From contig JAJHRE010000006.1 of the NCBI GenBank assembly GCA_020832985.1, forward strand, positions 1 to 41,060: 41,060 nt of DNA, read 5' to 3'. Shown piece after piece: positions 8,629-13,083 of the stretch (position 1 is the first letter of the stretch; each line of letters starts with the position of its first letter). The position numbers and the translations under genes were made by a program. This DNA comes from Desulfurococcaceae archaeon. Lineage in GTDB: Archaea; Thermoproteota; Thermoprotei_A; Sulfolobales; NBVN01. The notes beneath the pieces were generated by a model. It did no database searches and was not told where the DNA came from. It saw nothing but the letters and a program-made list of their open reading frames with translations.

Positions 8629-8896
8629 TTGAGTATCTTTTGGAGCTTAGAAGGTGTTGATATGTGTTCTGTTGAATTATCTGAAGAGGTTTTAAGATGT
8701 GTTGAGATTGCTGAGAAGTTCTTAGTTGAGTGTAGGGAGCTTATCGATAAAGACCCTATCCAAGCATCTGAGAAGTTATATGAAGCTGCTGAGGAAGTTG
8801 TTAAAACTCTCGCAGTAGTTCTTAACCTACCGGAGGCTAGGAAAGCTATCGAATCTAGTGGTTGGTGGTCGAAACTACTTGAGAAAGCAGTTCAGG
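8629..8896 (+). pseudogene. PaREP1 family protein, 5' half (interrupted by IS)
   Basis: RCVEIAEKFLVECRELIDKDPIQASEKLYEAAEEVVKTLAVVLN...WWSKLLEKAVQ; continues at 10397. Confidence 0.7.
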
Positions 8897-8934
8897 GCTG
8901 TTTCGGTCTTCATAATCATTTGCAACATTCATGT

Positions 8935-10005
8935 TCATTGATGTCTAAGGCCTCTTAGGGCTATTAGGTATGCTGATGCTGCGTGACGGTCTAGCCTATA
9001 TTTTCTCATCACATCATAATGCTCTCGGGAGTTTGTTGTTCCCTTCGGGTCTACGAGGAATACTCTGAATCCATATTTTAATGCCATTACAACACTGTAC
9101 TGTATTAATTGCTTCTTAGCGAATCGGGTTATCTTCCTATTAGCTATCTTGCTTCTTGTAAACCTCTTTCTTTTGACTGAGAGGAGGTTTTCGAAGACAA
9201 CGATACTAACGCTATGTCTATAGCAATACTCCAGCAGCCTCGCCAGTGCATTAAGTCTCAACGCCTTCGCCTTCCCTCTTGGAAACCCATGGGAGGTCGC
9301 TTCGGGAAACCATGCCGTTCTAGTATCTAGTATTCTTCCATGCTCATCAATAATCACTAGGTTTACCCTGTCGCTGTTCAAGTCGAAGGCGGCAATAAGC
9401 TCTCCCCTAGCCTCCCCCTTCTTGAAGTATTTGAGGTAGAGCTGAATCGGGATTGAGAGGTGTAAGTATATGATACCCTCTCTGAAGACTATTCTAGCTG
9501 TATAGCTCAGCTTCTTCTGCTTTGCAAGGTCTACTAGCTCCCTGAGTAGTGGGAGGTATTTCTCCCCGAACTCGGCTCGTAGCGTTATCCACGAGCTGTC
9601 ATATGGGTATTTGACTTTGACTAAGCATGTATCCTCTAGTCTCACATTTCTATTTCCAAGTCTTGAGGACTCGCCTTCGCTGATGATGAAGAGCTTCCTC
9701 ACCTCTATGTGTAGTGGATTACCACCATTGAATATGCATCCTTCCACCATTGCCTTAGCCGCATTGTACGCTGAGTCAGCGTATGCTTTGTTTAGCATTC
9801 TCCTGAGCTCTCTGAGAATTCTGTCTTCTTCTAATCCCTTAACGATCATTCTAGTGGCTACATGAACAGCTCTCCTGAAATCCCATGCAAGCCTCACTAA
9901 ACGCATATAGTCCTCACTCGAGACTGGGTATACCCTACCAGTAATAGTCACGTAATTTACTATCGAGGACGCATCTACAACACTACTTGTCTGGCACCGT
10001 GACAC
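8935..10005 (-). CDS. tnpB: TnpB/OrfB-family RuvC-like nuclease lacking a recognisable Zn-ribbon
   Basis: RuvC motifs AAFDLNSDRVNLVIID, VVFENLLS, YRLDRHAASAYLIALRG; no CxxC between RuvC-II and -III; GTG start. Confidence 0.8.
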   Translation of the reverse strand: MSRCQTSSVVDASSIVNYVTITGRVYPVSSEDYMRLVRLAWDFRRAVHVATRMIVKGLEEDRILRELRRMLNKAYADSAYNAAKAMVEGCIFNGGNPLHIEVRKLFIISEGESSRLGNRNVRLEDTCLVKVKYPYDSSWITLRAEFGEKYLPLLRELVDLAKQKKLSYTARIVFREGIIYLHLSIPIQLYLKYFKKGEARGELIAAFDLNSDRVNLVIIDEHGRILDTRTAWFPEATSHGFPRGKAKALRLNALARLLEYCYRHSVSIVVFENLLSVKRKRFTRSKIANRKITRFAKKQLIQYSVVMALKYGFRVFLVDPKGTTNSREHYDVMRKYRLDRHAASAYLIALRGLRHQ

Positions 10006-10129
10006 GGACTACCACCAACCTCCTATGTAGATGCCTCATCTTCTCACTCAGCTCCTTAGGTATGTAGATACAGAGAAGTCCGTGACTAGTCTTTGAAATC
10101 CTGGCATGAAACACATACTCCTCCGGCAT
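9983..10129 (-). CDS. Small IS-associated protein, possibly AbrB-like
   Basis: MPEEYVFHARISKTSHGLLCIYIPKELSEKMRHLHRRLVVVRVTVPDK*; overlaps tnpB start by 23 nt. Confidence 0.6.
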   Translation of the reverse strand: MPEEYVFHARISKTSHGLLCIYIPKELSEKMRHLHRRLVVVRVTVPDK

Positions 10130-10156
10130 ATTCCTTCCTCAACAGAATACTACAGA

Positions 10157-10173
10157 AAAGCTTATAAAGCTTT
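10157..10173. promoter_or_regulatory. Symmetric bidirectional TATA-like promoter
   Basis: AAAGCTT-ATA-AAGCTTT; TATA-like in both directions, about 30 nt from the small ORF ATG and about 25-30 nt from the start of the GC-rich segment. Confidence 0.45.
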
Positions 10174-10190
10174 CCATAGTTATTAATTAT

Positions 10191-10345
10191 AGAGTAGGGA
10201 TGAACTCTGTGAGCTAGGTGAGGGGGACTTTTGAGGCCGTCTTCGGCGGAGGGAGTAGGGGATGAACCACTAGGTGACTAGTGACGACCACTCCCGTAGT
10301 ACGGGGCGGCCTCAGAAGAAGCCGTTGAGAAGTAGATGGTGGGGA
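10191..10345 (+). ncRNA. Candidate structured RNA of the TnpB element (strand tentative)
   Basis: GC-rich in AT-rich DNA; nested stems TGAGGCCG/CGGCCTCA (10232-39/10307-14), GGGAGT/ACTCCC (10251-56/10290-95), CACTAG-GTGA-CTAGTG (10268-83) with a GNRA-type loop on +. Confidence 0.45.
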
Positions 10346-10389
10346 GCCTGAAATCAGTGAATATAAATGGCTATGAATCACCATCTACT
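10331..10389. repeat. 11-bp perfect inverted repeat near the element end
   Basis: AGTAGATGGTG (10331-10341) / CACCATCTACT (10379-10389). Confidence 0.7.
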
Positions 10390-10396
10390 GAGAAAC

Positions 10397-10570
10397 GGTA
10401 TAGCTAAAACCCTCGGTGTTAAGGAGTTCATCCTCTGGTGGGATAGTGCATACAAGCTACATGTAGATGGTTTCCACGAAGCTAAGTTAGGTAGTGAAGA
10501 TGTTAAGGAGAGGTATGAATATATAGAGAATATGGTTAACCTAGCTAAGAAGATTATAGGGAAGACATGA
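10397..10570 (+). pseudogene. PaREP1 family protein, 3' half
   Basis: GIAKTLGVKEFILWWDSAYKLHVDGFHEAKLGSEDVKERYEYIENMVNLAKKII, canonical PaREP1 C-terminal half. Confidence 0.7.
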
Positions 10571-10698: not shown

Positions 10699-11121
10699 AT
10701 GGATAGTACTGTAGATCACCTAGCTATAGCTAAGGTATATCTCAATGAAGCGTTTAAACTCCTCGAACGTGGTGATCCTTTCGATGCTGCTGAGAAGGTT
10801 TGGGCAGCTGTTAAACACGCTACAACAGCTTTAACCATGAGTGTTCTGGGAGAGTCAGTACCTCCGAAGGGTATTTCATGGAGATCGTTCGTTAAGGAAG
10901 CATTCATGAAGGTAGGTCTTAATGAGGAAGAAGCATCTAAGTGGGCTTCATACTTCATAGATGTTAGGAAAGGCCTCCACGGAGACTGTTTCTACGGACT
11001 AACATATGAAGAAGAAGAACATAAACCACTAATAGAGAGGGCTAAGGAGTATATAGACCTCATAGATAATATCTTAAAGAAACTTAAGCACCAGCCAGAA
11101 ACAGACCCTAGACCTACATGA
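10699..11121 (+). CDS. PaREP1/HEPN family protein
   Basis: AKVYLNEAFKLLERGDPFDAAEKVWAAVKHATTAL...VRKGLHGDCFYG. Confidence 0.7.
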   Translation: MDSTVDHLAIAKVYLNEAFKLLERGDPFDAAEKVWAAVKHATTALTMSVLGESVPPKGISWRSFVKEAFMKVGLNEEEASKWASYFIDVRKGLHGDCFYGLTYEEEEHKPLIERAKEYIDLIDNILKKLKHQPETDPRPT

Positions 11122-11190: not shown

Positions 11191-11937
11191 TTACTCCTTC
11201 CTCTGCACTAATTTGTTATAGAACTTGTAGACTACCTGTTTTGCTTGGTCTAGGAGCTTTAAAGCCTCAGTCCAGAAGATGTTGAATGTATCCCTATTTA
11301 AGCCTCCTTCATAGAAGTATCTGTGAAGTACCTCACCAGTTTTTAGAAGATCGTAGAAGAGCTTCCTATACCTCTCCTCAATATTGTAAGTAACATAATT
11401 GTAGAGCTTATCATGATCCCAATGAGCGATGAATGCACCCTTCAGTGATGCATGAAGTTTCATCAGAGCTGTTATAGCTCCCCAAAGCTTTTCAGCAGAT
11501 TGTTGAGGATCTTTATTAACTAGTTCTAGGGCTTCGCTATAGTACTTCTCAAACATGTTCTTATACCTATCAATCCTCTCACTAGGATTTCCCCACACAT
11601 TCTTCAAATCATCGACAACATCCTCATCACTCCAACCAGTAGCTTTCACCAACTCACTCAAATTACTCTTATCAACTTCATCTAGAGGCTTCCCCTCAAC
11701 AAGTTTTTCCGCTAAGGGAACCAGCTCTGGAAACTCGTGGAGGGATTCTGAAGACGCTGTGATGGCGTGATCGACCTTCATCATCCCATAAGAATGTTCG
11801 TAGTGTTTAACACCCTCAACACTACCGTGTCGCGTTAATATAGAGATAATAAGTGTTTCAGACCCTTTAACTAAAGTAGAGCTAGAAGTACTATACGGTT
11901 GAGTAGTTAATAACGTTAAATCAGAGTCTTTGAGCAC
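11191..11937 (-). CDS. PaREP1-domain protein with N-terminal extension
   Basis: YYSEALELVNKDPQQSAEKLWGAITALMKLHASLKG...LFYDLLKTGEVLHRYFYEGGLN. Confidence 0.7.
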   Translation of the reverse strand: MLKDSDLTLLTTQPYSTSSSTLVKGSETLIISILTRHGSVEGVKHYEHSYGMMKVDHAITASSESLHEFPELVPLAEKLVEGKPLDEVDKSNLSELVKATGWSDEDVVDDLKNVWGNPSERIDRYKNMFEKYYSEALELVNKDPQQSAEKLWGAITALMKLHASLKGAFIAHWDHDKLYNYVTYNIEERYRKLFYDLLKTGEVLHRYFYEGGLNRDTFNIFWTEALKLLDQAKQVVYKFYNKLVQRKE

Positions 11938-12666: not shown

Positions 12667-13083
12667 TTACTCGTTAATCGGGTCGTGGCTGAGTAGAGTG
12701 TCCAGTGGTGTTACGTTAATGTATTTCTGTGCCTTACTCATTAGCTTTCTATCTTCTGTCACTAGTGTTAACCCGTATTTCTGGGCTAGGACTATGTATG
12801 AGGCGTCGTATGCTGTTAACCCGAGTTCTACGGACATCCTTAACACCTCTTTCTCTAGATTTGAAATGTTCAGAATCCTCATGTATCTAATCACATCTAC
12901 AACTATATCAACTAGTTGAAGGACTTTGTCTATGGAGGTGAATTTGAGTAGGTATGCCTCTCTCCATAAGGCATTTACAACCTCATAGATTGTAAGCCAT
13001 TGGATGGAGTTATCTACGAGTACTTCAGGTTTACCGAGTTTAAGGGCTTTAATGAAGGATGAAGCATCAAAGAGACACCTCAA
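12667..13083 (-). CDS. vapC: VapC PIN-domain toxin
   Basis: RCLFDASSFIKALKLGKPEVL...LGLTAYDASYIVLAQKYGLTLVTEDRKL. Confidence 0.85.
   Translation of the reverse strand: MRCLFDASSFIKALKLGKPEVLVDNSIQWLTIYEVVNALWREAYLLKFTSIDKVLQLVDIVVDVIRYMRILNISNLEKEVLRMSVELGLTAYDASYIVLAQKYGLTLVTEDRKLMSKAQKYINVTPLDTLLSHDPINE

Follow-up and report, generated by a model that had tools for sequence, protein, structure and literature searches.

A conserved structured RNA divergent from tnpB in an archaeal mobile element: a candidate guide RNA related to Sulfolobus sRNA133

Described guide RNA systems and the element in the PaREP1 gene

Guide RNAs of the TnpB systems known so far originate at the 3' end of the tnpB mRNA, which couples the expression of protein and guide, and the omega RNAs described to date extend into the coding region of tnpB. 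In S. islandicus, a sense-overlapping guide transcript has been reported for most IS605-type tnpB genes, but not for the solo IS1341-type genes (PMC11043419). The locus described here shares with the TnpB-omega RNA (reRNA) systems of IS200/IS605 elements (ISDra2, SisTnpB1 and SisTnpB7) a TnpB-superfamily protein with a RuvC D-E-D site, a structured RNA at the element end with the flank as its predicted 3' guide, and insertion immediately 3' of a short motif located at the other end of the element. It differs from them in that the RNA is encoded 5' to tnpB, on the opposite strand, and is preceded by a conserved TATA box of its own, in that the motif is GCC or NGG rather than AT-rich, in having neither a zinc finger nor tnpA, and in the k-turn that lies next to the predicted guide in relatives. 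IscB/HEARO loci are also IS200/IS605-like elements in which the guide RNA is encoded 5' to the nuclease; however, the IscB RNA is on the nuclease strand with a 5' guide, whereas here the RNA is on the opposite strand with a predicted 3' guide and the protein is TnpB/Cas12f-like. Non-coding RNAs of transposon remnants have also been described in a related archaeon, namely the RNA-257 paralogues of S. solfataricus, which originate within the distal part of the coding sequence for an ISC1904-family transposase; RNA-257 was rejected as the same RNA, its source being a transposase coding region and not a divergent gene (PMC3674436). Our literature search, with most subscription papers outside its reach and novelty thus not proven, returned no divergent TnpB guide RNA.

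The window, i.e., the whole stretch of 41,060 nt analysed, comes from a heat-loving archaeon and contains a mobile element of approximately 1.5 kb (8895-10398) inside a PaREP1 gene on the + strand. The 5' part (8629-8894) and 3' part (10399-10570) of the interrupted gene match positions 3-68 and 70-115 of the PF05942 profile, respectively. The limits of the element were taken from the sequence common to stacked copies, which starts and stops sharply at 8895 and 10398/10399, and from empty sites of window-type copies with NGG at the junction. The only ORFs within the element are tnpB and a small ORF, and approximately 210 nt of structured sequence occupies the right end. A second full copy in the genome (a 1.42-Mb draft) is 84% identical to that in the window. 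Several short copies of approximately 300 bp, in which the left end is joined to the right end without tnpB, retain the right end with its hairpins and RNA as well as the left 45-60 nt or so. They resemble prokaryotic MITEs in carrying both ends of the full element, but they keep the promoter and the complete structured RNA and therefore look like guide-only loci. One tnpB-less copy and the second full copy occupy a gatA-like gene (G000:C22 105409-107691; L002 and L004) in opposite orientations. A Y1 transposase gene is absent from the element; one, which might act on the element in trans, is found elsewhere in the genome. Near the element, at 10699-11121, 11191-11937 and 12667-13083, lie further PaREP1 genes and an ORF, toxin-antitoxin-like in character; one of these PaREP1 genes gives a weak HEPN match, and the ORF appears by eye to encode a PIN-domain protein.

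The tnpB-like gene (8935-10005, - strand) encodes 356 aa with the RuvC residues D208, E272 and D339 intact. These residues and the motifs DxNxxR, P..T..S and DxH..SAY are conserved in the family alignments, in which no zinc-finger CxxC pairs were found. Many TnpBs, but not all, have C-terminal zinc-finger cysteines, and their absence is therefore not decisive. The NCBIfam matches (TIGR01766, 1.4e-5; NF040570, 1.5e-5; TIGR01765, 1.5e-5) are all under the curated cut-offs, and a Pfam search with the protein returned no match. The best fold matches of the AlphaFold model are Cas12f and RuvC; the mean pLDDT is modest (65.7), with most of the RuvC core above 80, and the global TM-scores to Cas12f are low (0.3-0.4). 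Judged from its sequence and modelled fold, the protein is a distantly related TnpB that has kept the D-E-D site intact and is predicted to be an RNA-guided DNA nuclease. Between tnpB and the shared promoter lies the small ORF (9983-10129, - strand), which encodes an AbrB/MazE-like protein of 48 aa. Its homologues (L022, L023, L025, L027, L028, L173 and L174) show conservation down to L028 and the Sulfolobus-type elements described below. The counterpart in L191 matches PF04014 (MazE/AbrB) at 4e-9, and the small ORF of the window gave no Pfam match. The small protein may regulate the shared promoter.

The structured RNA, its strand and its promoter

An earlier note on this DNA had pointed to a GC-rich non-coding segment with nested stems. 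This segment was located at 10190-10326, where the G + C content is 58% compared to 39% for the window (top 0.1% of 137-nt stretches), and the stems were found within 1-2 nt of where the note had placed them: TGAGGCCG (10232-10239) with CGGCCTCA (10307-10314), GGGAGT (10251-10256) with ACTCCC (10290-10295), and CACTAG-GTGA-CTAGTG (10268-10283). All of its motifs were right, but it had missed the leader and a second long hairpin. The complete structured, omega-like RNA spans 10190-10398 on the + strand, the start being approximate. It comprises a leader, AGTAGGGATGAACTC..GTGAGCTAGGTGAGGGGGACT (10193-10231), which is highly conserved in alignments A1 and A2 and includes GATGAACTC-GTGAGC at 10199-10214; a core hairpin (10232-10314) with an outer stem, a bulged-G-like GUA/GA internal loop, the GGGAGT/ACTCCC stem and the GNRA-capped hairpin at 10268-10283; and a terminal hairpin (10321-10398), which contains a k-turn in several relatives. 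The arms of the terminal hairpin (10321-10341 and 10379-10398) pair up to the element boundary, the hairpin ending exactly there (10398/10399), and in many copies the closing stem likewise falls exactly at the boundary. Thus, a conserved structured RNA is present whose scaffold finishes where the element ends.

The predicted fold of 10190-10399 is much more stable than expected on the + strand (-86.0, with shuffled sequences averaging -59.7; z -7.1) and also better than chance on the - strand (z -5.8). In 16 aligned copies, a structure of 39 pairs has 94.3% of its cells paired. Eighteen of the 39 pairs changed on both sides, compared to a mean of 8.5 in shuffled alignments, and none of the 500 shuffles reached this number, although this control overstates the significance because the alignment rows are related to each other. 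A second control, which keeps the relatedness of the rows by sliding the partners 1-3 columns, destroyed the covariation signal (score 0.278, compared to 0.131 when shuffled). Two more RNA subtypes were observed (L006, L007, L008, L013, L047 and L077; L005, L009, L017 and L193-L196), which have the terminal hairpin and the GNRA core in common and differ in their leaders. No tRNA was found in a search of the window, and weak snoRNA matches in the Rfam search were rejected as chance.

The + strand was assigned because several motifs exist only when the RNA is read in that direction. These are the GNRA apical loop, present in all 13 of the A1 sequences possessing the loop and in the majority of the other copies; tandem U-G pairs, recurring in 15 of the 16 aligned sequences; the conserved GUA/GA loop; and a perfect k-turn in eight relatives, with its outer stem reaching the element boundary. 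The earlier remark that the GNRA loop is readable on the + strand only is therefore borne out, and the loop is conserved among relatives. A loose scan, which also caught unrelated sites, gave GCGA 17, GCAA 11, GTAA 5 and GTGA 4 times. An apparent excess of G-U over A-C on the + fold (108 against 30) was dropped as a strand test, since on the pairs common to both folds the numbers are 21 and 25, which leaves the strand undecided.

Upstream of the leader lies a symmetric TATA element, AAAGCTTATAAAGCTTT, at 10157-10173. Most of 53 copies, whether or not they carry tnpB, have a TATA box some 38-42 nt upstream of the leader, at a nearly fixed distance. It is likely a divergent promoter for the RNA (+) and for the small ORF and tnpB (-). 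With regard to the two-way promoter suggested earlier, its rightward half is thus backed by the conserved position of the TATA box, while leftward firing is a proposal. The other TATA-like sequence, AATATAAAT, was found at 10360-10368 as described, inside the variable loop of the terminal hairpin.

In all 21 elements checked that have both parts, the RNA lies upstream of tnpB and divergent from it (the window; the L002 full copy; L022-L025, L027, L028, which is weak, L040, L041, L048, L049 and L054; L173, L174, L177, L179, L184-L186 and L191). The RNA and tnpB do not overlap, and the gap between them is 137-199 nt in the last-named set from L173 to L191. Together with the covariation, the GNRA loops and k-turns and the TATA box, this arrangement upholds the suggestion of a + strand RNA divergent from tnpB. 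In L025, a second RNA copy lies downstream of tnpB on the same strand and resembles a separate short copy. The distance of approximately 40 nt between the tnpB stop (8935) and the left boundary (8895), from which the earlier note had argued against a conventional guide RNA, is correct; by itself it is an insufficient argument, because known omega RNAs reach into the coding sequence. At the tnpB 3' end itself, no structure was found in the window (z 0.0 over 150 nt, +1.2 over 210 nt) or in L174 (z near 0), and L185 gave -2.4 over 150 nt and -1.3 over 210 nt. The tnpB gene is better described as inverted within an otherwise ordinary layout of motif, element and guide.

A covariance model of homologous elements had been put forward as a check on the RNA, and the aligned copies have covarying stems as described above. 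A model built from the leader and core (R1) gave matches at E <= 0.001 in 49 genomes, belonging to 31 genera, out of 214 searched for the order, and in three further genomes in another family of the same class; among the loci are those of Caldivirga sp. MU80 and Desulfurococcaceae archaeon RSNS19. The match in the window (10195-10326, E 4e-32) is to a copy that is part of the training set of R1. Copies of one family, f9, match RF02814, 'Sulfolobus sRNA133', on the RNA strand, for which reason we call them Sulfolobus-type. Against a gathering threshold of 44 bits, L173, L175, L177 and L185 score 88-97 bits and L188 scores 27.5 bits, and the match falls on the counterpart of the core hairpin. 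The window itself matched no Rfam family at the gathering score, RF02814 included, and the window-type and Sulfolobus-type groups are linked through R1, which finds both. The Rfam entry (Sso133) differs from the RNA described here in that its model covers only the core of approximately 73 nt, its search output carries no transposon link, and the window copy goes undetected. Judging from these matches, this RNA, which in Sulfolobus has been catalogued only as the unexplained 'sRNA133', recurs over many archaea. The sRNA133 is reportedly co-precipitated with L7Ae, which we did not use as evidence.

Insertion sites and the candidate TAM

Empty sites were found by searching related genomes with the joined flanks of f9 elements. 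Eight Sulfolobus-type insertions have such sites (L172, L176, L177, L220, L221, L222, L224 and L232), and at all eight the insertion caused neither duplication nor deletion. The junctions read GCC, or ACC, GCG or GCA in some diverged relatives. Nearly all of the 52 left ends in this family begin with GCC, indicating that GCC is a retained target. In the left flanks, G never directly precedes GCC (52 of 52), and of 26 right flanks, 18 begin with T and 7 with C directly past the RNA end. For window-type copies, inspection of the left flanks by eye had given no motif until the empty sites were aligned. The empty sites of L192, L194 and L195 then revealed a junction motif of (N)GG or NGGG, and here too the insertion had neither duplicated nor deleted any sequence; that of L193 is uninformative, the relative being without approximately 28 nt there. 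The corresponding trinucleotide in the window is GGG at 8895-8897 (+), at the tnpB-3' end. No empty allele of the window insertion itself was found; reading GTT CAG GGT ATA GCT across the junction restores an open PaREP1 frame.

Insertion without target duplication and 3' of a short motif is a feature of IS200/IS605 elements. An IS607-like GG cross-over was considered and dropped, as the empty sites keep the motif on one side. Several window-type insertions are accompanied by host deletions (46 nt in gatA, 393 nt in thi4, approximately 220 nt at L075 and approximately 163 nt at L056), and losses of 46-393 nt are not predicted by the simple insertion scheme. The host-gene losses were observed at L006, L002, L075 and L056; the Sulfolobus-type insertions are clean.

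In every case the motif occupies the tnpB-3' end, opposite the RNA end, and the empty site therefore reads motif and then predicted guide on the RNA strand. This is the TAM-target order of TnpB, and it was not built into the search. We regard this adjacency in the empty site as the strongest argument for the extension of the RNA serving as a guide. The GCC/NGG motif is thus a candidate TAM, predicted to be recognised by the protein. Since the RNA stops where the element meets host DNA, it probably carries a host-derived guide, which in the window would be the first 20 nt or so of the PaREP1 3' half (10399-10418, +), a length assumed from other TnpBs. The earlier idea that the RNA runs out of the element and takes the flank as guide is consequently favoured by the geometry of the empty sites, with the guide function itself inferred.

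Proposed mechanism, alternatives and significance

Taken together, these observations make it likely that the segment is a structured RNA gene producing the omega-type guide RNA of the element's own TnpB, with its own promoter and with tnpB inverted. In the source organism, the symmetric TATA box would fire rightward to give a scaffold of approximately 210 nt, whose last stem closes at the element boundary, and read-through would add approximately 20 nt of flanking DNA as guide. The product would have the order 5'-scaffold-guide-3', as required by TnpB and Cas12. Leftward firing of this TATA box may in addition express the small AbrB-like protein and TnpB. The insertion point lies directly 3' of a short motif (NGG for window-type and GCC for Sulfolobus-type copies), at the end away from the RNA, and TnpB, bound to the RNA, would recognise this motif as TAM and cut the empty allele, so that retention or re-entry of the element is favoured. 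The tnpB-less copies of approximately 300 bp may represent guides served in trans.

An alternative hypothesis, which we consider unlikely, is that the element encodes a regulatory RNA without a guide, which for example controls tnpB or a transposase or acts as a decoy for host L7Ae and whose 3' end is formed by processing at the boundary or short of it. Cis-antisense sRNAs of archaea that lie opposite transposase genes have been proposed as transposon regulators (PMC3432209, PMC3674436), the catalogued sRNA133 model is short, and the RNA and tnpB have a promoter region in common. However, the RNA does not overlap tnpB and so is no cis-antisense RNA of it, and a regulatory role predicts neither the closing stem exactly at the boundary in many copies nor an insertion motif precisely at the TAM position. 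It is more doubtful still, and in our view improbable, that the hairpins are kept mainly for mobility, as a single-stranded DNA end read by a Y1 transposase acting in trans. The retention of the structure in tnpB-less copies, the IS200/IS605-like, duplication-free insertion 3' of a short motif and the Y1 gene elsewhere in the genome are in line with this, but a covarying structure that extends over some 210 nt and includes GNRA loops, k-turns and conserved tandem U-G pairs is much more than a transposase hairpin. Nor would a DNA end account for the TATA box at a near-fixed distance or the match of Sulfolobus-type copies to a catalogued sRNA family, and no similar structure exists at the opposite end of the element. 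A role as a DNA end is nonetheless compatible with one as an RNA.

The remaining two hypotheses place the guide RNA elsewhere. A conventional guide RNA at the tnpB 3' end, with the divergent RNA being something else, would agree with the location of characterised omega RNAs, including those of other Sulfolobus TnpBs (PMC10640517, PMC11043419), and with the conservation of the left 45-60 nt in the short copies. Nevertheless, the insertion motif occupies the very side where such a guide would have to be read, and the folding values at the tnpB 3' ends are near zero in the window and L174, with L185 at -2.4, so that we judge this very improbable. Least credible, with hardly any weight left to it, is the minus-strand, IscB-like RNA 5' of the ORF that the earlier note had entertained, with the guide at its 5' end. 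The fold of the - strand and the IscB-like position speak for it; against it, the GNRA loops, k-turns and tandem U-G pairs are on the + strand only, its putative TATA-like AATATAAAT falls in a variable loop, and the match to the Rfam sRNA falls on the opposite strand.

For the guide RNA reading that we prefer, the consequences extend beyond this locus. More tentatively, with a chance that we place somewhat short of even, these elements may constitute a widespread archaeal TnpB lineage with an independently promoted, divergent guide RNA that is identical with sRNA133 and contains a k-turn, with guide-only loci acting in trans; as the guide RNA has a k-turn, the RNP would then include host L7Ae. 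An RNA gene that has a conserved promoter of its own on the strand opposite tnpB, and that is kept where tnpB is missing, would separate the supply of guides from that of the nuclease, as CRISPR systems do. Our analyses thus offer a testable role for the Sulfolobus sRNA133 and for the repeats of approximately 300 bp in archaeal genomes, and they add a TnpB lineage whose candidate TAMs are GC-rich and whose hosts belong to a group with genetically tractable members.
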